Shown: positions 8,638-36,011, counted from the stretch's first letter. The stretch is 64,000 nucleotides of DNA from Arthrobacter sp. NEB 688 (GCF_013201035.1 NZ_CP053707.1:434001-498000), one strand, 5' to 3'. Made by a program: numbers and translations. Notes: a model not told the origin generated them from the sequence alone.

Positions 8638-8661
8638 CCGTCCTACTGTCTCAACACAGTG

Positions 8662-8734
8662 CGCGCCCGAAGGGATTCGAACCCCTAACCTTCTGATCCG
8701 TAGTCAGATGCTCTATCCGTTGAGCTACGGGCGC
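8662..8734 (-). tRNA. tRNA-Arg (anticodon ACG)
   Basis: A complete 73-nt cloverleaf on the minus strand. The acceptor stem GCGCCCG (5' end at 8734) pairs with CGGGCGC. The anticodon stem TCTGA/TCAGA encloses the loop CTACGGA with anticodon ACG, and the T arm carries GGTTCGAATCC. No CCA is encoded. The 5' 43 nt are part of a 48-bp repeat found again at 35964-36011, so this gene is the integration target of the island and its promoter side now comes from the island. Confidence 0.95.
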
Positions 8735-8739
8735 CCGTC
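8692..8739. repeat. attL: 48-bp island boundary repeat
   Basis: These 48 bases are identical to 35964-36011. They cover nucleotides 1-43 of tRNA-Arg(ACG) plus five bases of its 5' flank. The flanks diverge at once on both sides (T versus G before, C versus A after). With an integrase gene just inside the other copy, this is the left attachment site of a 27.3-kb integrated element. Confidence 0.9.
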
Positions 8740-9735: not shown

Positions 9736-10518
9736 TTGTGGTTCACTCGACGCATGAATCGATCTGTGGAGGCCGCCGGGGTCGCGCTCGCGGACGCCGC
9801 TACCTTGGTGGGGGACAGCGGGCTCGGCGTCGCGCTGTCCGAGCTGGTGCGTGAGGTCTGGTCGACCAATGTCGCCCGCTTCGCCCCCGAGGAGCACGGC
9901 GACACCAGCAAGTCGTTGGGCTGGCAGTGCTACGAGAACTTGAGGGTGATCGCCAGCCGGCGCTTCTTGGGCGACGAGGCCGTCCCCGCCGAGGAAAGGT
10001 GGGACATCCCGGGCCTGTGGGTGGGAACGCCCAAGAACGTCCTGACCATGCGCTTGTCCGGCATCTCACTCGTCTTCAAGAAGGCGCCACACGTCCAAGG
10101 ACGGGAGCCGCTGTGGGCCCGATTCCCAGAGTGGGAGACAGAGAGCTACATCCGACAGGACCTGGCGCGCAAGAACGCCGTCGTCTTGGGTGGAACCGCG
10201 CCGAGAAACTCCCAGCAGGGCGAGCTGCCGTTCGGGCCCGAGGACCAAGTCACCCCGGGCAGGGTCCGTGACTTCATGGTGGTGTGGGGCGGCGACCTCA
10301 ACACGGGCGAGACCTCGGGCTGGCTCACTGTTCCGGTGGCCTGGCCCGAGCTCCACTTCGCGGGCGTCACGCAGCTGTGGGCAGACGCAGACGGGTCCTC
10401 GACCGCAGATGCCCGACGCGACGAGCAAGAGGTCAACGAGGCGATTGCCGCGCAGGGTGACCTCGAGCCCATCGTGCGCCTCAAGGCCCGCCCGAGGGAC
10501 AGCCAGGGCGAGGCGTGA
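9736..10518 (+). CDS. Uncharacterised partner of XRE-ImmA/IrrE protein
   Basis: A 260-residue soluble protein that I do not recognise. It is mixed alpha/beta, with tryptophan-rich segments (RWDIPGLWVGTPKN near residue 92, FMVVWGGDLNTGE near 180, LPVAWPELHFAG-like strand near 200) and an LVFKKAPHV strand near 112. It has no signal peptide or membrane helix. The start is TTG at 9736, supported by AGGAG seven bases before; the first in-frame ATG (9754) has none. Its stop overlaps the GTG start of the XRE-metallopeptidase gene (GTGA), so the pair is co-translated. The coupling to an ImmA/IrrE gene suggests that it is the effector or target controlled by that protein, for example a toxin. This is inference from order alone. 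Confidence 0.7.
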   Translation: MWFTRRMNRSVEAAGVALADAATLVGDSGLGVALSELVREVWSTNVARFAPEEHGDTSKSLGWQCYENLRVIASRRFLGDEAVPAEERWDIPGLWVGTPKNVLTMRLSGISLVFKKAPHVQGREPLWARFPEWETESYIRQDLARKNAVVLGGTAPRNSQQGELPFGPEDQVTPGRVRDFMVVWGGDLNTGETSGWLTVPVAWPELHFAGVTQLWADADGSSTADARRDEQEVNEAIAAQGDLEPIVRLKARPRDSQGEA

Positions 10519-11609
10519 GAGCGACCAGGCCTTCCGGGCAGTCCACCGACTTCGACCCGTCGCGCCTCACGGTGGCCCGACGACTGCGCGGCATGTCCAA
10601 AGCCGCGCTCGCTCGCGAGGTCGGGATCTCGCCCACCGCCATCACGCAGTTCGAGAAAGGCGGCGCGAGACCGAGTCACGGCGTGCTGGCCCAGATGTGC
10701 CTGACGCTGGGCCTGCCACGTGACTTCTTCGGAGCCGGCAACCCGTTGGCACTCCTACCCGCCTCCGAGGCGCACTTCCGGTCCTTGCGCTCCACCAGCG
10801 CCACTGAGCGTGAAAAGGCCCTGGCGTTCGGCGAAGTCAGCTTGGAGGTTGTGCGGCTGATCGAGAACTACGTCGACTTCCCACCGCTGAACCTGCCCGA
10901 CATCTCCGTGCCCGAGAGCATGTCCCCAGAGGCAATCGCATCGTGCGCCGCCGAGGTCAGGGCAGCCTGGAGCCTCCCCGAAGGACCGATCGCGAACATG
11001 GTCAGCCTCCTGGAAGCGCACGGCATCCTGGCCCTTCCCCTGCCCGAGACCACGGACAGGAAGGTCGACGCGTTCTCCACGGCCGCCGGCGGTCGCCCCC
11101 TGGTCTTCTTCAAGCCGGGTGCTGGCGACAAGGCCCGTCGACGCTTTGATGCGGCCCACGAGCTCGGGCACTTGGTGTTGCACCCAGACACCGAACCTGG
11201 CTCGAAGACGGTCGAGCGGCAGGCGCACGCGTTTGCGGCAGAGTTCCTCATGCCACGCAGGCAGATTGAGCCTCTTCTTCCCAAGCGCATCGACTGGCCG
11301 ACACTTCACGACCTGAAGCAGACATGGCAGGTCAGCTTGCGCGCGCTGGTGTACCGCGCGCACGAACTGGGTCGCCTCAGCGACGCCTCGTACCGCAGGG
11401 CAAACCAGCAGCTTGCCATCTGGGGCCTCCCGGAGCCCGGGGAGCTCGGTCCTGCCGAATCTCCCCGCCTCCTAGGCAAGGCCAGAGCGCTTCTTGAGGA
11501 AAATAATATCGACTTGGCCTCGATCCTTAAGGCCGGTCGGATTCCGACGGACCTGTCGGACATGGTCTTATCTGCTGGGACGAGGATTCGACCAAACGTC
11601 ACTATCTAG
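10515..11609 (+). CDS. XRE-family regulator with ImmA/IrrE metallopeptidase
   Basis: A 364-residue two-domain protein. An XRE helix-turn-helix occupies about residues 18-65 (ARRLRGMSKAALAREVGISP, then ITQFEKGGARPS). A zinc metallopeptidase of the ImmA/IrrE (COG2856) type follows at about 160-290, with the HELGH motif at 215-219 and the downstream E-R-Q-A-H-A-F-A-x-E-F-L-M-P helix that supplies the third ligand. In known relatives the peptidase cleaves a repressor or antitoxin on a cue (ICEBs1 ImmA, Deinococcus IrrE). The GTG start overlaps the preceding stop. The pair likely forms a self-regulated stress or toxin-antitoxin-like module of the island. Confidence 0.85.
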   Translation: MRATRPSGQSTDFDPSRLTVARRLRGMSKAALAREVGISPTAITQFEKGGARPSHGVLAQMCLTLGLPRDFFGAGNPLALLPASEAHFRSLRSTSATEREKALAFGEVSLEVVRLIENYVDFPPLNLPDISVPESMSPEAIASCAAEVRAAWSLPEGPIANMVSLLEAHGILALPLPETTDRKVDAFSTAAGGRPLVFFKPGAGDKARRRFDAAHELGHLVLHPDTEPGSKTVERQAHAFAAEFLMPRRQIEPLLPKRIDWPTLHDLKQTWQVSLRALVYRAHELGRLSDASYRRANQQLAIWGLPEPGELGPAESPRLLGKARALLEENNIDLASILKAGRIPTDLSDMVLSAGTRIRPNVTI

Positions 11610-18470: not shown

Positions 18471-18807
18471 GCTCGACACGGTCCGGTGTGCCGCGGGGAC
18501 GTCAATCAGCCTTGCGAGGGCTGGCCCGAGAGGGTGCAGCTCACTCAGTGACAGGCCCGCTGGCCGTTGGTTTGGTGACTGTATACGTATCCCTCTAGGC
18601 GACTCGGGCGCGCGTCGCCTACCCATGCCGCGGATAGGGCGGTACGGTCAGCCAGCGCTGGGGGCCTAGCGGTAGAGAGCGATATCCAGGTTTACGGTCG
18701 CGTAGAATCTGGTAGGGACAGTGCCACGACATGCTGCTTGATTGGCGGGTCAAGCTGAACTCGCGTGTCATCATCGCGATGAGTTCGACCTTGAGGGGGT
18801 TTGGCCT
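18471..18807. other. Intergenic region upstream of the ATPase
   Basis: A 337-bp gap between divergent genes, with more A/T than its surroundings from about 18570 on. It contains GTATAC near 18583, a -10-like TAGAAT at 18703-18708 without a clear -35, and a 6-bp inverted repeat GCTTGA/TCAAGC at 18736-18755 with an 8-base spacer. No gene is seen. The compositional change suggests that one edge of an inserted segment lies here. Confidence 0.4.
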
Positions 18808-20340
18808 GTGACTGGCCTTGATTTGAATGCTGTTCGGGATATTGTGCGCTCCATTTCGATGGGATCGCGAGTAGCAGAAGATGAGAGACAGGCGCTTTCT
18901 GCATACTTTGTGGAGACAGAGAACTGGCGCAAAGTTTTCGAGGGCGAAGTTGATGTTGTCTTCGCCCCGAAGGGTGGCGGGAAAAGCGCAATATATTCGA
19001 TGCTCATGTCTCGCGAAAGTGCGCTATTCGATCGCGGCATTCTGCTGACCACCGCCGAGAATCCCAGCGGGCAGACCGCTTTCGCTGAGGTTGAAAAAGC
19101 CCCCCCAACTAGCGAAGACGAGTTCGTGGGCCTCTGGAAGACCTACTTCCTCGCACTCATCGCACAGACCTTCAACTCTTACGACATCAACTCTCCGAAG
19201 GCTAACGAGCTTATTGCGCTCTTGGAGGGCGCCGAGCTCGTCAAGCCCGACGGTACCCCGAAGAAGCAGATTCTTCATTTTGTGATGGACTATGTTAAGT
19301 CATGGTTCCGACCGGCCGAATCGGTAGAGGCTGAGCTTCGCATGGACCCTTTAACGGGGATTCCGATAGTGAAGCCGAAGATCACGTTCACGGAGCCTAC
19401 AACCGCGGAAAGATCGAACGGCTTCGTAGCTATCGACGACCTACTACTCAAGGCGGACGAGGCTCTCGAGGCCGAGACGCTAGACGTGTGGATTCTGCTC
19501 GATAGACTCGACGTTGCATTCGCCTCTGAACCGGAGCTGGAGGCGAACGCCCTAAGGGCTCTTTTCCGCGTCTACCGTGACATTCAGGCCCTTGACCACC
19601 TCAAACTGAAGATCTTCCTTCGAAGTGACATCTGGGACGCAATCACGCGGCAGGGCTTTCGCGAAGCAAGTCATATCACGCGCGATCTACGAATCACTTG
19701 GAGCGAGAGCGCCCTAATGCAACTTGTAGTGCAACGCCTGCTCCAAAGCAATGCTTTAGCCCAGCATTACTCCGTGGATCGCGATCAGGTGCTCGCGAGT
19801 GCACAGGCTCAAAAAGCCCTCTTTTACAGCGTCTATCCCGCTCAAATCGACCAGGGAAGCAAGAAGCCTGCCACGTTCGACTGGTGCCTCACTCGCACCA
19901 AAGACGGCACAGGCACGAACGCGCCACGCGAACTAATACATCTCTTATCTGAGACTAAGAACGAGCAGCTTTCTCGATTTGAGATCGGGCAAGCCACCCC
20001 CGAGGGGCATGCCATATTCGATAGGCAGGCATTCAAGGACGCCTTGCCTCAGGTTTCCGAGGTCCGGCTAAAGCAGACGCTGTACGCCGAGCACCCCGCC
20101 CTGCGCTCATATCTCGAGCTGCTGGAGGGCCAGAAGACCCGACACAATCATGCTAGCTTGGCGCGACTGTGGAGCGTTTCTGAGGAACAAGCGCAGGCTG
20201 TTTCCGAAGACCTTGTCCGGATTGGCTTCTTCGAAGCACGCGGAGAGGACTACTGGGTGCCGTTCATGTACCGCCATGCGCTGTCCTTGGTTCAGGGCTC
20301 AGCGGAAGAGGTTGGAACTGTCTCTTCCGACGACGACTAG
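18808..20340 (+). CDS. Sll1717-type P-loop ATPase
   Basis: A 510-residue protein from GTG 18808 (GAGGGGG eight bases upstream). The Walker A motif FAPKGGGKSAIY is at about residues 51-62 and Walker B WILLDRLD at about 228-235, followed by a sensor-like FLRSDIW near 270. The C-terminal part (about 430-500) looks like a winged helix (LARLWSVSEEQAQAVSEDLV). This matches P-loop ATPases annotated as the Sll1717 family, relatives of KAP/STAND NTPases often seen in defence islands. Its codon use (frequent A/T third positions) differs sharply from every neighbour, so it was acquired recently from a lower-GC source. It is a single gene, and its role is unproven. Confidence 0.75.
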   Translation: MTGLDLNAVRDIVRSISMGSRVAEDERQALSAYFVETENWRKVFEGEVDVVFAPKGGGKSAIYSMLMSRESALFDRGILLTTAENPSGQTAFAEVEKAPPTSEDEFVGLWKTYFLALIAQTFNSYDINSPKANELIALLEGAELVKPDGTPKKQILHFVMDYVKSWFRPAESVEAELRMDPLTGIPIVKPKITFTEPTTAERSNGFVAIDDLLLKADEALEAETLDVWILLDRLDVAFASEPELEANALRALFRVYRDIQALDHLKLKIFLRSDIWDAITRQGFREASHITRDLRITWSESALMQLVVQRLLQSNALAQHYSVDRDQVLASAQAQKALFYSVYPAQIDQGSKKPATFDWCLTRTKDGTGTNAPRELIHLLSETKNEQLSRFEIGQATPEGHAIFDRQAFKDALPQVSEVRLKQTLYAEHPALRSYLELLEGQKTRHNHASLARLWSVSEEQAQAVSEDLVRIGFFEARGEDYWVPFMYRHALSLVQGSAEEVGTVSSDDD

Positions 20341-21138: not shown

Positions 21139-21339
21139 ATGGCTCATCACCGCTGGAGGCGCTTCCTCCGCCGGCCGTGTCGCCCTGCGCTGCAGACCTT
21201 GCCCGAGGGGACCACGCCGTCCGAGCTCGCCCGAGCGCTCGGCATCCCGCCGAAGACGCTGCGTGCGTGGCTTCGCGCTCAGGGCTGGCAGTCGGTGCCC
21301 TATGAGCGCTGGCACCTCAGCGAGCAGCAGGCAGGCTAG
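21139..21339 (+). CDS. Small helix-turn-helix protein
   Basis: A 66-residue basic protein from ATG 21139. After an arginine-rich start it contains PSELARALGIPPKTLRAWLR (about residues 29-48), a helix-turn-helix like the C-terminal DNA-binding domain of Lsr2 or small Xis-type proteins, and ends in GWQSVPYERWHLS. It could be a regulator or directionality factor for the recombinase gene that begins about 220 bases downstream on the same strand. The ribosome binding site is weak. Confidence 0.5.
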   Translation: MAHHRWRRFLRRPCRPALQTLPEGTTPSELARALGIPPKTLRAWLRAQGWQSVPYERWHLSEQQAG

Positions 21340-21559: not shown

Positions 21560-23281
21560 TTGCCACGCGCGAGCGACTGCGCACTGTCTGCGCTCGTGAC
21601 CGATGCGATCACCAGGCCCACCGAGGCCTCACCCCGTCCCCTGCCCACCGCCGCAGACGCTGCGCGCCGTACCCGACTGCACCGACTGCTGCCCGCCACC
21701 GGTGCCGAGCAGCCGCCACGGCCAGCGCGCTCGGTCGCGGAGCGGGTGCTTGCCGGACGCCCCGTGAGTGGTCTCGCCGCGACCGCGCCCGCCGCTGCAG
21801 GTGGCGCGTTCTCCCGTCACCGGCATCTGAAGGTCGCCCAGCCTCCGACCACCGTCCCGCCCGAGCGCATCGCCGGTGCGGCGTTCCTCGAGGAGGCCCA
21901 CCGTGAGCTGGTCAGCTACTCGATGGCGACCGGCACGCGGCGGGGATACGAAGGCCACCAGGCCGCGTGGGTCCGGTGGTGCGAGCAGAGCGACATCGAC
22001 CCGCGGTCGGCGACACCGCATGACGTGGCCCTGCACCTGACCTCCTACCTCCTCGGCGGCGAGGACGAGGCCGTGCGCGGCCCCGACGGGCAGCTGCTCG
22101 CCGCCATCGCCACCTCGACCCTTCAGGTCCGCCTGGCCGCCATCGATAAGTGGTTCGAGGTTGACGGGCGCGCGCGCCCCGGGCACGACCTCGAGGTCAA
22201 GACACTGATGCAGGGTGTGCGGCGGCTCTTCGGGGTCGCCACGACCCGCGCGAAGAAGCCGGTGCTGCTCGCCGACCTTCGGCTGCTGCTCGCGGTCGTG
22301 CGGCAGGCCCAGCTGCGCCCTCGACGGGACCTGGTCCTGGTCGAGGCCTCCCGGCAGTTGGGGGCCACCCCCGGCCAGCTCGCCCGCTTGGACTGGACCG
22401 ACGTGGACCTCTCCGGCGCCGACGCCTACCTGGCGCTGCCACCGGACAGGCGCGGGGGCTCCCGCCGGCGGGTGCGACTGCGCGCGAGCGCATCTCACGA
22501 ACGCTGCCCTGTCGAAGCGCTGCGCGCGCTGCATGAGGCCGCCACGGCCGACAGCACGGCTGTGTTCGGCGACGATGCCGGCAGGCGCCTGACGCGGCAG
22601 GCCATCGACAAGCGCCTGAGGACGGCAGCCAGTGTCGGCGTGGCCGCGCCGAGGGCGAGCACCAAGGCGCTGCGGGATGCGGCGATGCTCACGGTGGGTT
22701 GGTTCGCGGCGCTGCGCCGGTCGAACCTGGCAGCACTGAACTGGTCGGACCTGACCTGGACTCCTGACGGCTCGATCCGGGTGCGCCTTCGACGGTCCAA
22801 GACCGACCAGCAGGGAGCGGGAGCGTGGAACTGGCTGCCAGCCCTATCCGGCGACGCCGCCTGCCCGGTCGCAGCGCTGACCGCATGGCGTGAGCGCGTG
22901 GAGGAGCTGATCGGCGCCGACCCCCGTCACGTTCTCGCTGACCAAGCGTTAATCCCGGCGATGGACCGGCACGACCACCTCAAGCACCGTGGCGAGAGGT
23001 TGCAGCGGCTCCGAGGAGAGGCCGTCAACGAGCTGATCCAAGACCTCGCGGGTCGTGCCGGGCTCGCCGCGCCGGGTGCGACCGGTGCGAGCTCGATGGG
23101 TGGCCACAGCTTGCGCGCCGGGTTCGTGACACAGGCGTGCATCTCTGGCCTGCCGCTGATCGAAATCGCGAAGGTCACGCACCACGCGGACGTGCGCAGC
23201 CTCGGCGTCTACTACCGCCCGACCGACCGTTCATCGGAGAAGACGATCGCGGCGGTAGTGGCCGGAGCCGCCGGGTCTTGA
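21560..23281 (+). CDS. Tyrosine recombinase (island-internal, first of three)
   Basis: A 573-residue phage-integrase-fold recombinase. The N-terminal arm-binding/SAM-like domain spans about 115-200. Catalytic residues are visible: Arg near 384 (FAALRRSNLAAL), Lys near 413 (LRRSKTDQQ), His and Arg near 516-519 (GGHSLRAGF), His near 542 (VTHHADVRSLG) and the nucleophile Tyr near 550 (GVYYRPTDRS). All six key positions appear intact. The start is uncertain: TTG 21560 or GTG 21596, neither with a good ribosome binding site. It converges on two further recombinase-like genes across a perfect terminator, so the cluster may be a separate mobile unit nested in the island. Confidence 0.85.
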   Translation: MPRASDCALSALVTDAITRPTEASPRPLPTAADAARRTRLHRLLPATGAEQPPRPARSVAERVLAGRPVSGLAATAPAAAGGAFSRHRHLKVAQPPTTVPPERIAGAAFLEEAHRELVSYSMATGTRRGYEGHQAAWVRWCEQSDIDPRSATPHDVALHLTSYLLGGEDEAVRGPDGQLLAAIATSTLQVRLAAIDKWFEVDGRARPGHDLEVKTLMQGVRRLFGVATTRAKKPVLLADLRLLLAVVRQAQLRPRRDLVLVEASRQLGATPGQLARLDWTDVDLSGADAYLALPPDRRGGSRRRVRLRASASHERCPVEALRALHEAATADSTAVFGDDAGRRLTRQAIDKRLRTAASVGVAAPRASTKALRDAAMLTVGWFAALRRSNLAALNWSDLTWTPDGSIRVRLRRSKTDQQGAGAWNWLPALSGDAACPVAALTAWRERVEELIGADPRHVLADQALIPAMDRHDHLKHRGERLQRLRGEAVNELIQDLAGRAGLAAPGATGASSMGGHSLRAGFVTQACISGLPLIEIAKVTHHADVRSLGVYYRPTDRSSEKTIAAVVAGAAGS

Positions 23282-23297
23282 TGGGTCGGACCGAACT

Positions 23298-23330
23298 GCC
23301 CGGCCCCTCCGCGTCGCAGAGGGGCCGGGC
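23298..23330. terminator. Bidirectional terminator hairpin
   Basis: GCCCGGCCCCTC (23298-23309) pairs with GAGGGGCCGGGC (23319-23330), a perfect 12-bp stem with a 9-base loop, between the convergent recombinase genes. Confidence 0.85.
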
Positions 23331-23349
23331 TGTCGCTTCGCACGCGCGT

Positions 23350-24657
23350 TCAGTTGAAGTCGTACACGGGGTGCACCTCGTCCTCGATGCCGAGTCGGAC
23401 GTATCGCGCCAGCTCAGCCTCGTCGTAGCGCATCGTGATGGCTGCGGTCTCGGCGAACGTGGCACCGGACCGGACAAGTGCGGTGGATGTGGTCACCCGC
23501 AGCGTCCTGGTGGCGATGAGGCGGCTGGGATCAAGGTCGGGCAGCGCCGACAGGACCAGCTCCCGGATAAGGTGGCGGGCGTTCTGCCTGGTCATGACAC
23601 CCCACTTCCCGGCGTAGTGCGTCGCGAAGACCGGCCCGGAGGTTCGGCCCTGGCGCCGGCAGACCTCGAGCTGGTCTTCCAGTCCACAGGCCGGGCACAT
23701 CGGGTCTGCCCCGCACATCTCGACGTCTGGTTCTACGTGCGGAACGGAACGGACCTGGACCTGCCCCGCACGAAGCTTCGCGACCCGGTAGGTCACCTCG
23801 TACCCGTCGTGGGTGACCCGCACGTCTTCGATGAGCAGGTTGGCGAGGCTGATCTGACGCAGGGCGTGATGGATGCCGAGCGCGAACCATGCGAGGTTGC
23901 GCACCCGTCGGTCGCGCGTGGGATCGCAGTGCACGAGGAGCCTATGAAAGTCCTCCGCCGAGAGGGCGCGCACCTCGCTGGGCGAGGACAGCCGAAGGCC
24001 TGCGCGCCGAGCGGCGCCACGCACCCTGGCGCGCAAGGCGCCGGCCTGGAGCGAGCACGTGCCTGCAGGGATGTCACCGTCGCGCGTCAGGATGCCGTAC
24101 TCCACGCTCTCGGCTTCGATCTCGAGGCGGCGCCCCCGATAGGTCAGATCGCCGTTGGGCCCCGCTGCCACATCCAGCCCCTCAACCTCGGACCAGGTGG
24201 GCACAGCGCCAACTCGCGCCAGGGCCACCAGCCGGCGCAGGGCCAAGTCCGTGATCTCAGGGCGAGGAGTGGCGGCGTGGGCAGCCACTTGGTGCACCTC
24301 GGCGTCTGTCAACGGGCTGATCCGCTCCCTCGGTTCGGGACCGATCCGCTTGAGTGCGCCCAGGTAGCCATCGACGACTGGCCACTTCTCCCCGGTGCCG
24401 CCCAACTGGCGGATGCGCGCACGCAGGCTCTCTACGCGTCGGCTGGCGTAGCTGTGACGCATGCCAGGGCGCTCGGCGAGGAAGGCAACCACCACCTCGC
24501 CCGTGGGCCGCGACGCCTTGGCGCCGTGACGGTCGCAGAAGGCCTCCCATGCGGCCCAGTTCATGCTGTCGGTCTCCAGCGCGGTGTCCGCATAGCCGCT
24601 CCAAGCGAGCTCGTCGGCGAGCATCTGGAGGACGGTCGGTGAGATGTCCCCGTTCAC
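23350..24657 (-). CDS. Tyrosine recombinase-like protein (second of three)
   Basis: A 435-residue protein with the core pattern of tyrosine recombinases: Arg in FALGIHHALRQISLANLL, a Lys in YRVAKLRAGQVQVR, TRTLRVTTSTALVRSGATFA in place of the usual HxLR box, and a terminal ELARYVRLG that supplies a candidate Tyr. A four-cysteine-type insertion (CGADPMCPACGLEDQLEVC) may bind zinc between the first Arg and HxLR boxes. It is preceded by an ATGA overlap with the 510-residue gene, so both are co-translated. Loss of the box-II histidine is seen in some specialised recombinases. It could be active only with its partners. Confidence 0.7.
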   Translation of the reverse strand: MNGDISPTVLQMLADELAWSGYADTALETDSMNWAAWEAFCDRHGAKASRPTGEVVVAFLAERPGMRHSYASRRVESLRARIRQLGGTGEKWPVVDGYLGALKRIGPEPRERISPLTDAEVHQVAAHAATPRPEITDLALRRLVALARVGAVPTWSEVEGLDVAAGPNGDLTYRGRRLEIEAESVEYGILTRDGDIPAGTCSLQAGALRARVRGAARRAGLRLSSPSEVRALSAEDFHRLLVHCDPTRDRRVRNLAWFALGIHHALRQISLANLLIEDVRVTHDGYEVTYRVAKLRAGQVQVRSVPHVEPDVEMCGADPMCPACGLEDQLEVCRRQGRTSGPVFATHYAGKWGVMTRQNARHLIRELVLSALPDLDPSRLIATRTLRVTTSTALVRSGATFAETAAITMRYDEAELARYVRLGIEDEVHPVYDFN

Positions 24658-26186
24658 TGGTCCACCTGCCCAGCGCCGTCGACGACCGCGCGTGACACCT
24701 CATCCGTCAAGGGCGCGAAGCTAAGCAGCCACTCACGCATCTGGTTCGGCTTGCGAAAACGGAGCACACGAAGCAGCTGTCCTTCAGTCGCGCCCCGCAG
24801 CACCAGATTCGAGGCGTGCATCTGACGCGCGGACTCCCACGTGTAGCCGGCCTCCCCCAGGCCCACGTCGCGCAGAAAGCGGATGAACGCGCTGCGCGCG
24901 GCGCCGACCGTGATGGCGTGCGAGGAGTCGTTGCTCCATCCTGTCGGTGCCACCAGCAGTGGCGCCGACCCAGGAAGACGATCCCCACGCGCGGCCTCCC
25001 GCACCAGTAGTAGCTCTCTCACAGCCGCGACCGCGCAGAGCGTCGGGTAGGGGATCGGCTTGACCCCGAACCAGTCTGTCCCCGGGCCCTGCTGCTTCAT
25101 GCTTCGCGGCAACCTCACCTCGAGGCCGCCGGCCGCGCTGTCGGACAGTGCTGTTCGCACGTCGTCGAGGGTGAGGCGCGCGAAGATGTCCGAAGGGGTC
25201 AGCCCGCGCATGGCGGTCAGCTTGAGCGCAGTCAATGTGACCATCTCGCTCCTGGCCGAGCGCGTGCCAGCTCGGGCGACCAGCTGCCGGGCACCCGTGC
25301 GAAGTCGGGGTGCAACAGCGGACTGGTAGCTGAGGGGCTCCCCGGGGTGCAGGGTCAGCGCGGGAGACTGCCGCGCGCAGGACAGCAGGTAGGTGTGGAT
25401 CGCCCTGTACAGAATCGGTCCTCCCGCCACCTGGCGGCCCTTCACAGAGAGCAGCCCCGTCCCAGCTCCGGCGCGGGGCAGCCGCAGATGATCGCGCACC
25501 ATGCAGGCAGCGCAGGCCAGCCACACCTGCTCGGAGAAGAGGTGAGCACACGGGATCTGCACCATTCGTCCGGGAAGGATCAGGGTCACCGAGCCGTCGC
25601 CCTGGAGCGCCACGTCCTGATCGCGCAAGGACGCCAGCTCCTTGCACGTCAGTCGTGCGTCCAGACTCAGGATCGCTGCCACTGCGCAGGCGGAGTCGGC
25701 GCGGGTCCTCGGACCGGCCTCGCAGAGGGCCTTGAAGTCGCTCGGCGGCATCAGGGGCGCCGGGTCTGATGCCTTCGCGGTCGCCGCATAAGTCATTGCG
25801 CAGCTCCTGCGAAGGTTGCTCAGCTCATCAAGGCTGAACAACTCGAGGGGACAGTCTCGGCCGGCGACGCGGTAGGAGTAGCGCACGGCAGACAGCAAGA
25901 TCTCCACCTGCCCCAAGCAGACCGCGCCGGTCCTGGTGTTGCCCTTGCTGAACCTGCGGATCTCTCCGCTCATGGCTCCGTCGAAGAGCGCCACGATCTC
26001 GGCCCGGCCCGCACCCAGCGGGTCCATGCCTCGCCCCTCGCACAGCGGCTTCCAGACCAGGCGAAAGGCGCCTTCGTACTTCTTTGCCGTGTCCTCGTTC
26101 ACCGCGCTGGGCAGGACGGCCTTGGCCTCATCGATGAGGGAGTCCAAGTGCTTCCCCGCTTCCGACCAAGCGGTGGTGCTGGTCAC
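24654..26186 (-). CDS. Divergent tyrosine recombinase-like protein (third of three)
   Basis: A 510-residue protein. Its C-terminal half keeps the shape of a tyrosine recombinase: Arg in TALKLTAMRGLTPSDIFARL, Lys in LPRSMKQQGPGTDW, and GYTWESARQMHASNLVLRGA in place of HxxR. The nucleophile position seems to be missing (ends QMREWLLSF), so this subunit may be catalytically dead. CAHLFSEQVWLACAACMV holds further cysteines. It is overlapped on both sides, by the 85-residue gene (ATGA at 26183) and the 435-residue gene (ATGA at 24654), in one minus-strand operon. Recombinases-in-trio elements also combine active and diverged recombinase subunits. Confidence 0.6.
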   Translation of the reverse strand: MTSTTAWSEAGKHLDSLIDEAKAVLPSAVNEDTAKKYEGAFRLVWKPLCEGRGMDPLGAGRAEIVALFDGAMSGEIRRFSKGNTRTGAVCLGQVEILLSAVRYSYRVAGRDCPLELFSLDELSNLRRSCAMTYAATAKASDPAPLMPPSDFKALCEAGPRTRADSACAVAAILSLDARLTCKELASLRDQDVALQGDGSVTLILPGRMVQIPCAHLFSEQVWLACAACMVRDHLRLPRAGAGTGLLSVKGRQVAGGPILYRAIHTYLLSCARQSPALTLHPGEPLSYQSAVAPRLRTGARQLVARAGTRSARSEMVTLTALKLTAMRGLTPSDIFARLTLDDVRTALSDSAAGGLEVRLPRSMKQQGPGTDWFGVKPIPYPTLCAVAAVRELLLVREAARGDRLPGSAPLLVAPTGWSNDSSHAITVGAARSAFIRFLRDVGLGEAGYTWESARQMHASNLVLRGATEGQLLRVLRFRKPNQMREWLLSFAPLTDEVSRAVVDGAGQVDQ

Positions 26187-26440
26187 GACAGGCCCTTGAG
26201 CGCGCGCCGTGCCAGGGTGAGGTCGGCCGAGCTGTAGGCGGCGTCAGCCAGGGAGTCGAGCCACAGCTGGAAGTGGTCGCTGTCCAGCGGGATGTCGAGG
26301 TGCCAGCAGGAGTCGGCGAAGGCCGCAAGGGCGGGGCCACCAGCGTGCTCCTCCGCCGCGCGGTCGCTCCCGATCGTGAGGAGGTCGTTCAGCACATCGT
26401 GCGGTGCGCAGCCCGTGCCGGGGTCATGGTGTGTGGTCAT
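26183..26440 (-). CDS. Small protein heading the recombinase operon
   Basis: An 85-residue acidic, helical protein from ATG 26440 (starts MTTHHDPGTGCAPHDVLNDL, ends TLARRALKGLS). Its stop overlaps the next start (ATGA), so it is translated together with the two recombinase-like proteins. I do not recognise the family. Its place suggests an accessory or regulatory subunit of the recombination complex. An imperfect palindrome CGTGCG/CGCACG lies at 26484-26502 in the presumed promoter region. Confidence 0.55.
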   Translation of the reverse strand: MTTHHDPGTGCAPHDVLNDLLTIGSDRAAEEHAGGPALAAFADSCWHLDIPLDSDHFQLWLDSLADAAYSSADLTLARRALKGLS

Positions 26441-26582: not shown

Positions 26583-27254
26583 TCAGCAGTGACGGGCCGC
26601 TGCTGGCGTCGCCTCGTCGTGCTCGGACCGCGAAAGGGCGCGTTCTCGGATCCAATCTGCAGCCCCTTGCCAGGACTCACGGATCTTCGGGTCGAGGTCG
26701 GCCGTCATGCGTTCGAGAAGCGCATCGAGTTCCGGGCTGGGTCCCGCGTCAGATAGCAGGATGGCCTCGGCCCTGGCGAAGTAGGCCTCAAAGCCGTCCT
26801 TCTGCTTGATCTCGCCCAGCCCGTCGTCGCGTAGCTGGCTCAGGAATGTCGGGCGGTTCAGGAGTGCGTTCAGGCGCGGCCAGCCGTCGCGATCAAGGCG
26901 CGCGACCATGTCCAGGACTGCCGACTCGGCCGATGCAGGGGACCGGATGTCCCAGCGGGTGTCCAGCCTCTCGCGATACAGGCCGTACGACTCAGAGAGC
27001 GACTTGGGCAGGGGGCGACGCCGGCTGGAGAACTCCAGCCACGGGGCCGGCGCGACGGAGAGGTTGATGTAGCAGCTGGTCTGGTCGCGGTCGCCCCACG
27101 GGGACATCTGGACGTTGGCGAGGGCGACGTCGCCGGCATCGTTGATGCGCCGCCAGGTCGGCGCAGAGCCTTTGAAGCCTGCCGCGCGTGCCGAGGGGCC
27201 CATGTAGGCACGGAGCGCAACCCGCACAGCGTCCTTCACCGTCATGCGACGCAT
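26583..27254 (-). CDS. DUF4304-like protein
   Basis: A 223-residue soluble protein resembling the DUF4304 family: an N-terminal AYMGPSARAAGFKGSAPTWR segment, then strands DVALANVQMSPWGDRDQTSC and YINLSVAPAPWLEF. In family members a similar layout is found next to toxins or in defence regions, but no biochemical role is established. ATG 27254 is preferred over a farther upstream start (27308) because the coding pattern begins there; no strong ribosome binding site supports either. It is monocistronic. Confidence 0.6.
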   Translation of the reverse strand: MRRMTVKDAVRVALRAYMGPSARAAGFKGSAPTWRRINDAGDVALANVQMSPWGDRDQTSCYINLSVAPAPWLEFSSRRRPLPKSLSESYGLYRERLDTRWDIRSPASAESAVLDMVARLDRDGWPRLNALLNRPTFLSQLRDDGLGEIKQKDGFEAYFARAEAILLSDAGPSPELDALLERMTADLDPKIRESWQGAADWIRERALSRSEHDEATPAAARHC

Positions 27255-27403
27255 CGTCGCACCGCCGCGGCGGTACGACCAGGAGTGCGGCTTTGATCCG
27301 CGAAGCATCCTGACCGCGCCATGAGCGCACGTCTGCCGCTCACCGCCGATCAGTTCGAATTCGGTCGGGCCGATGGTCGTCGTGCCACCATCAAGCGTGA
27401 CCA

Positions 27404-33512: not shown

Positions 33513-35222
33513 TCAGGTGACAGGCGGCAGGCCAAGCCAGTCACGGATCCGCCGGGCCAGGAGCCCGTTGCCGCGCGGGGGGCTGTCGAGGAGCGCCTTC
33601 TCGACCATGTCGTCCATGCCCTCCCACTTCGCTTGTGACCCGATTCCCTCGATGATGCCGCGATAGCTCTTCATGAGCTCGTGCTCGTCGTGGCCTGACC
33701 ACCGCGAGGCCACGAGGGTGTCGGCGCCGTAGGTGACCCATGTGGTGATGCCGGCCTTGCGGAAGTCGTAGAGCGTGGCGTTGCGCAGTGACGGGAGCGC
33801 CGGCCAGAGGTCGTCGAGCTTGTCCACGGCTGGGCGGAGGTAGTCCTCGCAGAAGTTGCTGGAGTCCAGCTCGTACCCCTGGGGAGAGACGAAGAGGGTG
33901 CCGTCGGCGCCTGCCAGGCCAGCCTCGACGTGGTTCTTGATCAGAGTCCTGACGACTTCGCTGAGCGGTGCCGTCCTGCTCTCCCCATCTGGTCGCATCT
34001 TGAGGTGGCCCCCGGCCGGAGGCACGATCCGGGCGTCGGCCCCGTCGCAGTGGTCGGCGCGCAGCCGCAGGCTCTCACCGGGCCGTGTCGCGAGCTGCAC
34101 GATCGTCAGCGGCAGGATGCGGTAGCGCTCCCCCGCTCGGATGCCGCCCTCGAGGCGGGCACCGCGCTCGGCGAGGGCGTCACCGAGGTCGACCCAGAAC
34201 CCGAGCCCGTGGTAGGCGCGCTCCTGTGCCGTCACGGGTCGCACGCGGCGGAACGGACTGCGCTTGACGCGGCGGCGTCCGCCGTTGCCACGCGGGTTCC
34301 ACGTCCTGAACGGGTTCGGGCCGGGGGGAAAGTGGCCGGCATCGAAGGCACGGTCGAAGACGAAGGACATCGCAGTGCGAAAGGCCTTCTCGGTGGTGGC
34401 CGAGATGATTGGTGAGCCGTCTGGGCTGACCGACGCCTCGAGAACGGGGGGGCGCGGTGGCACCGGCTTCCGGCCGCGCGGACCCGTGCCGGTGTTCCAC
34501 AGAGCCAGCTTCTGGGCGTAGACCGCCTCGAGGCGGTCGTACTTCTCCTGCTTCTGTCGGTTGTTGTGCTCCGCGCGCAGGTTCACGGTTCGGCGGAGCA
34601 TGAGGGCGTCGTTGAAGTCCTCGTGCCTGAGCAGGGACAGGTGGATGCTCGCTCCGGCCTCGAGACCGTACTTCGCGAGACGATCGTCGTTCTCGCCGTA
34701 GAGCATCACCGCCTTGATGAACCCGAGCTGCCCCTTCCACCAGATGTCGCTCTTGCCCTCGAAGCCCTGCTGCTTCCACTCGGGGCTCTCGAGGTGGATG
34801 ACCCGCTCGATGTACTGGGCGACCGTGCTCCCGAGCTTGCCCTTGGCGGCGGGCTGCGTCGTGTCGGTGTCGTGGCTGAGGACCGGGGTCGGGGTCGGGG
34901 TCGTGCGGCTTGCGGGGGATTCCGCCACCGCCGCGGACGCATCGTCGGTGACACGCGAGGGCGCGGAGCGAACGGGGTAGCCCTTGTCGTCGCAGGGCTG
35001 CTGCAGCACACGCGCGGTCTCGACCTGCAGGGCGAAGCCGCGTGCGAGGGCTTCGTCGGAGAAGGTGCGCTTGCGCGGGTTGTTGAGAACGCTGACCCGC
35101 CACCGCACGACGAACTTGACGGCCGAGCACGGCGCATCGCACCCCCTGAGGGGCTCCCAGGTCACCTTGGCGCCATCGGCGGTGGTGGCGCTGCAGTAGG
35201 GACCGCTCCATCGGATGCTCAC
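33513..35222 (-). CDS. int: Site-specific tyrosine integrase of the island
   Basis: A 569-residue recombinase encoded about 740 bp inside the right attachment site. The N-terminal half has a Cys-rich start (CDAPCSAVKF) and an arm/SAM-like domain. The catalytic C-terminus shows Arg near 379 (LATRPGESLRLR), a box II YDFRKAGITTWV (Arg near 485) and HDEHELMKSYRGI with the candidate Tyr near 519. The box-II histidine is replaced, as in some actinobacterial integrases. The GTG start overlaps the stop of the excisionase-like gene (GTGA). It presumably recombines the 48-bp tRNA-Arg core. It is larger than typical integrases (about 400-450 residues). Confidence 0.85.
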   Translation of the reverse strand: MSIRWSGPYCSATTADGAKVTWEPLRGCDAPCSAVKFVVRWRVSVLNNPRKRTFSDEALARGFALQVETARVLQQPCDDKGYPVRSAPSRVTDDASAAVAESPASRTTPTPTPVLSHDTDTTQPAAKGKLGSTVAQYIERVIHLESPEWKQQGFEGKSDIWWKGQLGFIKAVMLYGENDDRLAKYGLEAGASIHLSLLRHEDFNDALMLRRTVNLRAEHNNRQKQEKYDRLEAVYAQKLALWNTGTGPRGRKPVPPRPPVLEASVSPDGSPIISATTEKAFRTAMSFVFDRAFDAGHFPPGPNPFRTWNPRGNGGRRRVKRSPFRRVRPVTAQERAYHGLGFWVDLGDALAERGARLEGGIRAGERYRILPLTIVQLATRPGESLRLRADHCDGADARIVPPAGGHLKMRPDGESRTAPLSEVVRTLIKNHVEAGLAGADGTLFVSPQGYELDSSNFCEDYLRPAVDKLDDLWPALPSLRNATLYDFRKAGITTWVTYGADTLVASRWSGHDEHELMKSYRGIIEGIGSQAKWEGMDDMVEKALLDSPPRGNGLLARRIRDWLGLPPVT

Positions 35223-35623
35223 AGCCCGGCTCCCCTCGTGCGCACGTCGGTGGGGATGCCGTCGGCGAGGGCGTAGCGGGTCAGGGCCCCGATGGGGACC
35301 TCGACGACGGCGCCGTCGCAGATGAGGTGGGCCAGCTCGGTGTCGCTGAGGCTCAGGAGGGTCATGAGGTCTTCGCGACGGTGCACGACCACGCCGTGCC
35401 GAGCGGCGGCGGCGGCCGAGAGCCGGCCCTCGGTGCCGTCAGCGACGGTGGTCGCGGGCCGGGCTGCCGGCCGGGTCAGCGGGGGCAGGGCGCTGACCTT
35501 CAGGGCCCTGCTGGGCGCCCGACCGGGCTGCACGCGGTGGTGCGGTTGGGAGAGGGAGCCGGAGTCGGGCTTCGGCTTTGTGATCGGCTGCCATGCGAAG
35601 GGCAACCGGCTCGTCGTCGTCAT
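35219..35623 (-). CDS. Excisionase-like DNA-binding protein
   Basis: A 134-residue protein from ATG 35623. The C-terminal part resembles an excisionase or MerR-type winged helix: DLMTLLSLSDTELAHLICDG followed by the wing AVVEVPIGALTRYALADG. The N-terminal 60 residues are Pro/Arg-rich and probably disordered. It lies directly before the integrase, four bases overlapped, in the usual xis-int order near an attachment site. Its job would be to set integration against excision. The start is uncertain. Confidence 0.6.
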   Translation of the reverse strand: MTTTSRLPFAWQPITKPKPDSGSLSQPHHRVQPGRAPSRALKVSALPPLTRPAARPATTVADGTEGRLSAAAAARHGVVVHRREDLMTLLSLSDTELAHLICDGAVVEVPIGALTRYALADGIPTDVRTRGAGL

Positions 35624-35963: not shown

Positions 35964-36011
35964 TCTGATCCGTAGTCAGATGCTCTATCCGTTGAGCTAC
36001 GGGCGCCCGTC
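35964..36011. repeat. attR: 48-bp repeat with 5'-half tRNA-Arg fragment
   Basis: The sequence is identical to 8692-8739 and contains nucleotides 1-43 of tRNA-Arg(ACG) on the minus strand. The 3' half of the tRNA is absent, so this copy cannot give a tRNA. The flank to the right (-10-like TAGTCT at 36040-36035 preceded by GTCCGG) is the original chromosomal tRNA promoter. Confidence 0.9.

Follow-up and report, generated by a model that had tools for sequence, protein, structure and literature searches.

A convergent cluster of one intact and two degenerate tyrosine recombinases in a tRNA-Arg island of Arthrobacter sp. NEB 688

Gene layout and catalytic residues of the cluster

We analyzed a window of 64,000 nucleotides from Arthrobacter sp. 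NEB 688 (GCF_013201035.1 NZ_CP053707.1:434001-498000), in which three recombinase-fold genes lie side by side where the initial annotation had placed them, together with the following features.

18742-20340, plus strand: Sll1717-family P-loop ATPase, a candidate defense gene adjoining the cluster (NF047389, E 6e-57; PADLOC PDC-M28C, E 3e-17)
21139-21339, plus strand: 66-aa MerR/HTH-like ORF upstream of P0001 (weak HTH Pfam matches, E 4e-5)
21560-23281, plus strand: P0001, 573 aa, intact tyrosine recombinase (PF00589; full-length match to the A family described below; catalytic residues)
P0001 residues ~118-230: core-binding domain
22256-22642, plus strand: degenerate half catalytic domain (middle domain) of P0001, residues ~233-361
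22643-23278, plus strand: catalytic domain of P0001, residues ~362-573
23298-23330: hairpin with a 12-bp perfect stem between the convergent stop codons, a probable bidirectional terminator
23350-24657, minus strand: P0002, 435 aa, degenerate recombinase (PHROG_1, hhalign, AF2 model)
24654-26186, minus strand: P0003, 510 aa, degenerate recombinase (hhalign, low-confidence AF2 model)
26183-26440, minus strand: P0004, 85 aa, first gene of the minus-strand operon (no homolog found)

The minus-strand genes P0004, P0003, and P0002 overlap by 4 bp at each junction, and all four ORFs have a GC3 of 0.83 to 0.88, far above their GC2. P0001 is convergent to P0003-P0002, and the hairpin between them (-42.6 kcal/mol, z -3.3) does have the perfect stem of the "perfect bidirectional terminator" claimed earlier; its role as a terminator is plausible rather than certain, because neither side has a clear T-run. 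The start codon of P0001 is uncertain, since similarity to its relatives starts near residue 96. The MerR/HTH-like ORF might, speculatively, encode a regulator or a directionality factor. Library searches returned no homolog of P0004, which is a candidate accessory factor; its reading as a stand-alone core-binding domain was rejected, as the score fell within those of shuffled sequences. A DUF4304 protein (26583-27308, minus strand) also adjoins the cluster.

The hallmark of the tyrosine recombinase superfamily is a core-binding domain plus a catalytic domain with the residues R-K-H-R-H/W-Y. By alignment, P0001 carries the full catalytic set (R386, K414, H516, R519, H542, and Y551), and it matches PF00589 at E 5e-14. 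P0002 retains R, K, R, and Y in the alignment, with Arg in place of the box-II His and the second His/Trp lost. In P0003, the box-I Arg (AMRG, assigned by eye because MAFFT had shifted this motif) and the box-II Arg are retained, and the alignment places Glu at the box-II His, Phe at the second His, and Trp at the Tyr. The losses noticed at the outset, of the box-II histidine in one diverged protein and of the tyrosine in the other, were thus both borne out. Library searches gave a sub-threshold PF00589 match (E 0.0034) and a PHROG_1 integrase match (E 2.5e-5) for P0002 and no useful match for P0003. For the AF2 model of the 435-residue P0002 (pLDDT 69), the structural matches included Cre (4crx, E 1e-5), and the top ones were all recombinases. 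For the 510-residue P0003, the first 50 Foldseek matches were nearly all Cre, Xer, or integrase proteins and the best were Cre/XerA, but the model is poor (pLDDT 55), and the result is weak support on its own, as the input alignment contained recombinases and the E values were weak (best, 3e-3). Both proteins are homologous to tyrosine recombinases but lack some of the catalytic residues.

A duplicated catalytic half in P0001 and its relatives

Searching with P0001 led to full-length relatives in Nocardioidaceae (Nocardioides silvaticus, N. cavernae, N. jejuensis, Aeromicrobium ginsengisoli, and two more genomes). Counting a congener of the host (G814), the carriers belong to three lineages, the other two being Nocardioides and Aeromicrobium. 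At seven other loci, an intact gene (A) is directly followed, with an overlap or a gap of a few base pairs, by a paralog (B) lacking the Tyr. All B proteins have lost, in the alignment, both the Tyr and the Lys-bearing hairpin, and the Arg that replaces the box-II His in P0002 also occurs in the Nocardioides A proteins. DNA homology among the pairs begins ~90 bp into A, ends at the stop codon of B, and does not include the flanks, which differ; the unit of conservation is therefore the two genes A and B. One pair (L040 8170-10919, G468) is frameshifted and lies near Mza-like genes and a MobF-like relaxase.

Profile comparisons show that P0001 and its relatives consist of a core-binding domain, a degenerate first half of a catalytic domain, and a full catalytic domain, an architecture to which we refer as tandem-CAT. 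The middle domain corresponds to a degenerate duplicate of the initial ~140 catalytic-domain residues: the A middle domain matches the A catalytic domain at 98% (E 2e-13), and the B middle domain matches it at 95%. A and B align end to end (hhalign 99.8%, E 4.5e-30), and P0001 aligns with the A family over its whole length, middle domain included (hhalign 99.9%, E 2.6e-31). The same architecture is supported above shuffles for P0002 (hhalign 96% and score 75 against the A+B profile; shuffle maximum, 22) and for P0003 (88% and score 53 against the A+P0001 profile; shuffle maximum, 24; colinear over 13-392). With the A+P0001 and A+B profiles, both proteins are colinear over all three domains and score 43 to 75, compared with shuffle maxima of 22 to 26 and scores of at most 22 for unrelated proteins of the window. 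A B-only profile detected neither of them.

Conventional XerA-like and plasmid recombinases (e.g., the 323-aa protein of L060) share homologous core-binding and catalytic domains with P0001 but lack the middle domain, the family profile matching only 10-145 and 273-462; conventional recombinases of the host family are likewise matched in the core-binding and catalytic parts only, with the middle skipped. In a literature search of incomplete coverage, no description of such a catalytic-half duplication was found. The tandem-CAT proteins apparently constitute an undescribed family of tyrosine recombinases, with an architecture found in no known family. Several candidates for membership were rejected: the divergent integrase P0013 of the window scored within noise, the other integrases of the host genome (L005 and L006) are conventional and not paralogs of the cluster, and the tandem recombinases of Azospirillum (L057) are an overlapping pair without the middle domain. 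The latter, two conventional tyrosine recombinase genes overlapping in tandem at 7311-9595 of L057, an Azospirillum brasilense plasmid, are unannotated in the record.

Among 186 genomes of the host family, the family profile matched at full length only the three proteins of the window and the G814 pair. Searches for P0003 in 297 genomes of the order, in 12 genomes of the genus, and in plasmids gave no match; for P0002, the 394 genomes of the class that were scanned yielded nothing, and plasmids yielded only partial matches of a generic kind. At the sensitivity of the respective scans, no close relatives of either protein were seen in viral contigs or plasmids or, for P0002 only, in 84,980 species genomes. 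The same four-gene set did not turn up again in any genome searched and is so far unique. The pairing of an intact with a Tyr-less protein recurs at seven loci; the exact four-gene set is seen only here. Compared with the A-then-B operons, the intact gene is on the opposite strand and has two degenerate partners; the cluster is a rearranged variant of the tandem-CAT A/B arrangement.

The tRNA-Arg island and the defense neighborhood of the pairs

A 48-bp perfect direct repeat covers the 5' half of a tRNA-Arg(ACG) gene, and in 10 sister genomes the flanks to its left and right are joined, with the repeat as their overlap; these empty sites delimit a 27.3-kb island, across most of which the GC content falls from 73-78% to 59-72%.

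8692-8739: attL, 48-bp repeat in tRNA-Arg(ACG) (8661-8734, minus strand)
33513-35222, minus strand: P0013, 569-aa divergent tyrosine integrase beside attR (PHROG_1 integrase, 8e-8; box II YDFRK..GHDEHELMKSYRG, by eye)
35219-35623, minus strand: 134-aa ORF overlapping P0013, in the excisionase position (no family match)
35964-36011: attR, identical 48-bp repeat at the right end of the island

The att sequence consists of the 5' half of the tRNA-Arg gene plus 5 bp upstream, so that the intact tRNA gene has island DNA upstream and the native upstream region lies beside the half-tRNA; tRNA islands mostly duplicate the 3' end. An HTH-IrrE protein (10515-11609, plus strand; PADLOC RmrA match, E 1e-151) is encoded inside the island, which also holds the Sll1717-family ATPase and a GmrSD_C-domain protein. 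P0013, which had no Pfam match at E 0.1, is likely the island's own integrase. It had no relatives in the 186 host-family genomes, so no version of the island without the cluster was seen there. The cluster lies in mid-island; attL is ~13 kb and attR ~9.5 kb away from it. Given this position and the separate integrase beside attR, the cluster is probably carried by the island and is probably not its integrase. The suggestion of an independent mobile unit found no support: a search for terminal repeats gave no exact repeats above chance around either the cluster or the pairs, the surrounding tRNA-Arg island has P0013 at its edge, and no second four-gene example was found.

Clear defense systems lie near six of the seven pair loci (counted without a background rate for integrases), among them Mza, Hma/Mza, type III and IIG RM, and an MTase with PDC-S11 and NACHT; the seventh locus has only a weak BilD/E1-like match. 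MzaB is downstream of B in L040 and L059, and PDC-S11/NACHT is downstream in L075. Other integrases also occur near pairs, namely, a Tn554-like pair in G740 and conventional integrases in L041, L059, and L060. In G814, the pair is the first set of genes next to a tRNA-Pro gene, and the same contig carries an Hma/Mza-like defense cluster and a MobF-like relaxase (the latter recognized by eye); limited queries detected no other integrase on it, and no attR was found for this element. A second G814 contig (L132, C126, position 1) shares 499 bp with the pair contig and stops at the last base of the tRNA-Pro gene, and it could be an assembly branch arising from excised and integrated forms.

In one Nocardioides genome (G740; L058+L090, C1:657000 on; 6927-28711), a 21.8-kb defense island interrupts rtcB, with empty sites in G853 and G626 and TGCC at both junctions. 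This island has the Tn554-like pair (417 and 797 aa) at its right edge and the A/B pair near its left edge. In N. silvaticus (G626, C2; L092 2572-3890), the same stretch of rtcB is partially duplicated in tandem across the G740 insertion point, perhaps as the scar of an excised element.

Known multi-recombinase systems and the role of the cluster

The initial annotation had set the opposed arrangement apart from that of recombinases-in-trio (RIT) elements, a distinction that our analysis upholds. The ritABC genes are on the same strand and overlap, with the catalytic motif in all three products and ~28- to 34-bp inverted repeats (PMC3414803, PMC8138268), and what is doubled in RitA is the core-binding rather than the catalytic domain (PMC8138268). 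The cluster shares with RIT the three recombinases side by side but has P0001 convergent to P0003-P0002, no Tyr in P0003, neither His in P0002, and a longest flanking inverted repeat of 12 bp, which is at chance level, though imperfect repeats could be missed. Elements of the Tn554 family encode TnpA, TnpB, and TnpC, comprising two catalytic recombinases and a small accessory protein. The cluster shares with them the combination of several recombinases and a small accessory protein, but Tn554 has two catalytic recombinases, and in the G740 island the Tn554-like pair is a module separate from the A/B pair.

In GInt of Pseudomonas stutzeri DSM 4166, three YR-fold proteins, including the degenerate GinC, and a small protein are all essential for excision and integration (PMC5385486), and ginABCD form one same-strand operon with two catalytic subunits at the island's 5' end beside att (Bardaji 2017, PMC5385486). 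Compared with the published description of GInt, the cluster is partly alike: it has three recombinase-fold proteins, though two of them rather than one are degenerate, and an 85-aa protein, and it is carried in a genomic island; it differs in being convergent, in lying mid-island ~9.5 to 13 kb from the attachment repeats, in having one intact subunit, and in the duplicated catalytic half, which has not been described for GInt. SE elements have the order IntA-Tfp-IntB-Srap, with two catalytic recombinases, Tfp, which has the recombinase fold but no catalytic residues, and 13- to 19-bp imperfect terminal repeats (PMC10214605). They resemble the cluster in the dead recombinase-fold protein and the small auxiliary protein, but the cluster has one catalytic recombinase and no exact repeats above chance, a comparison in which imperfect ones could be missed. 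Pfam, NCBIfam, PHROGs, and PADLOC searches of P0001 to P0004 placed no Gin, Tfp, Srap, or TnpC family among the matches. GInt and SE illustrate that machines with dead recombinase-fold subunits exist, an analogy that is no proof for this cluster.

The active/inactive pairs beside defense genes in mobile islands suggest a multi-part DNA integration machine. Our preferred reading, held with moderate confidence, is that the cluster is a heteromeric site-specific recombination module of the tandem-CAT family, hitchhiking or nested in defense islands, here in an island probably served by P0013, to which the mobility of the island is more simply assigned. P0001 is predicted to supply catalysis; P0003 would serve as a noncutting subunit that binds DNA or fills a place in the synaptic tetramer, P0002 would do so with altered cutting, and the additional catalytic half carried by each protein would probably offer a further DNA- or protein-contact surface, with P0004 as a possible helper. 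The "multi-subunit recombination machine" proposed earlier gains indirect support from the intact/Tyr-less operons at seven loci and from the membership of P0002 and P0003 in the same family; the physical complex is what we infer from them. Several observations count against the preferred reading: neither terminal repeats nor an att site could be assigned to the cluster, its four-gene arrangement is known from one locus only, the P0003 model is poor, and the module need not be a mobility gene, given the other integrases nearby in the window and at several relatives.

In a rather unlikely alternative, the set is cargo, an anti-phage or other island component using the recombinase fold (e.g., for DNA binding or rearrangement upon infection). 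Defense genes adjoin nearly all loci, sometimes in the same direction as the pair (as do MzaB in L040 and L059 and PDC-S11/NACHT in L075), and there is one copy per genome, often with a second integrase; however, the A proteins keep the catalytic R, K, R, H, and Y (apart from the box-II Arg in Nocardioides), the defense-operon partners vary by locus, and the G814 pair adjoins tRNA-Pro, as integrases do. That tRNA neighbor, together with P0001 being the only Pfam-detectable integrase in the island, might make the cluster the integrase of the tRNA-Arg island, with or without P0013, but we consider this improbable, since P0013 occupies the normal place beside attR and the cluster is ~9.5 to 13 kb from either end. 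Finally, P0002 and P0003 have lost catalytic residues, show very low similarity, and have no close homolog in any collection, as decaying, functionless copies of a P0001-like gene would; however, both reading frames (435 and 510 codons) are intact, with a strongly biased GC3 and genes that overlap by 4 bp, and all intact relatives retain a Tyr-less partner, which makes such decay quite improbable.

A bolder extension of the recombination-module reading, which we regard as possible and offer tentatively, is a new class of mobile module in which one catalytic and one or more dead tandem-CAT subunits would form a hetero-oligomeric synapse, with the half-domain as a second DNA-binding layer, and which would spread actinobacterial defense cassettes. 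RIT, GInt, SE, and Tn554 pose the puzzle of why two to four proteins, some of them catalytically dead, stand in place of a single integrase. Intact and dead paralogs that share a duplicated catalytic half provide a tractable system for the role of dead subunits and of the extra domain, and their position beside many unrelated defense systems may reveal one vehicle that moves defense cassettes among actinobacteria.
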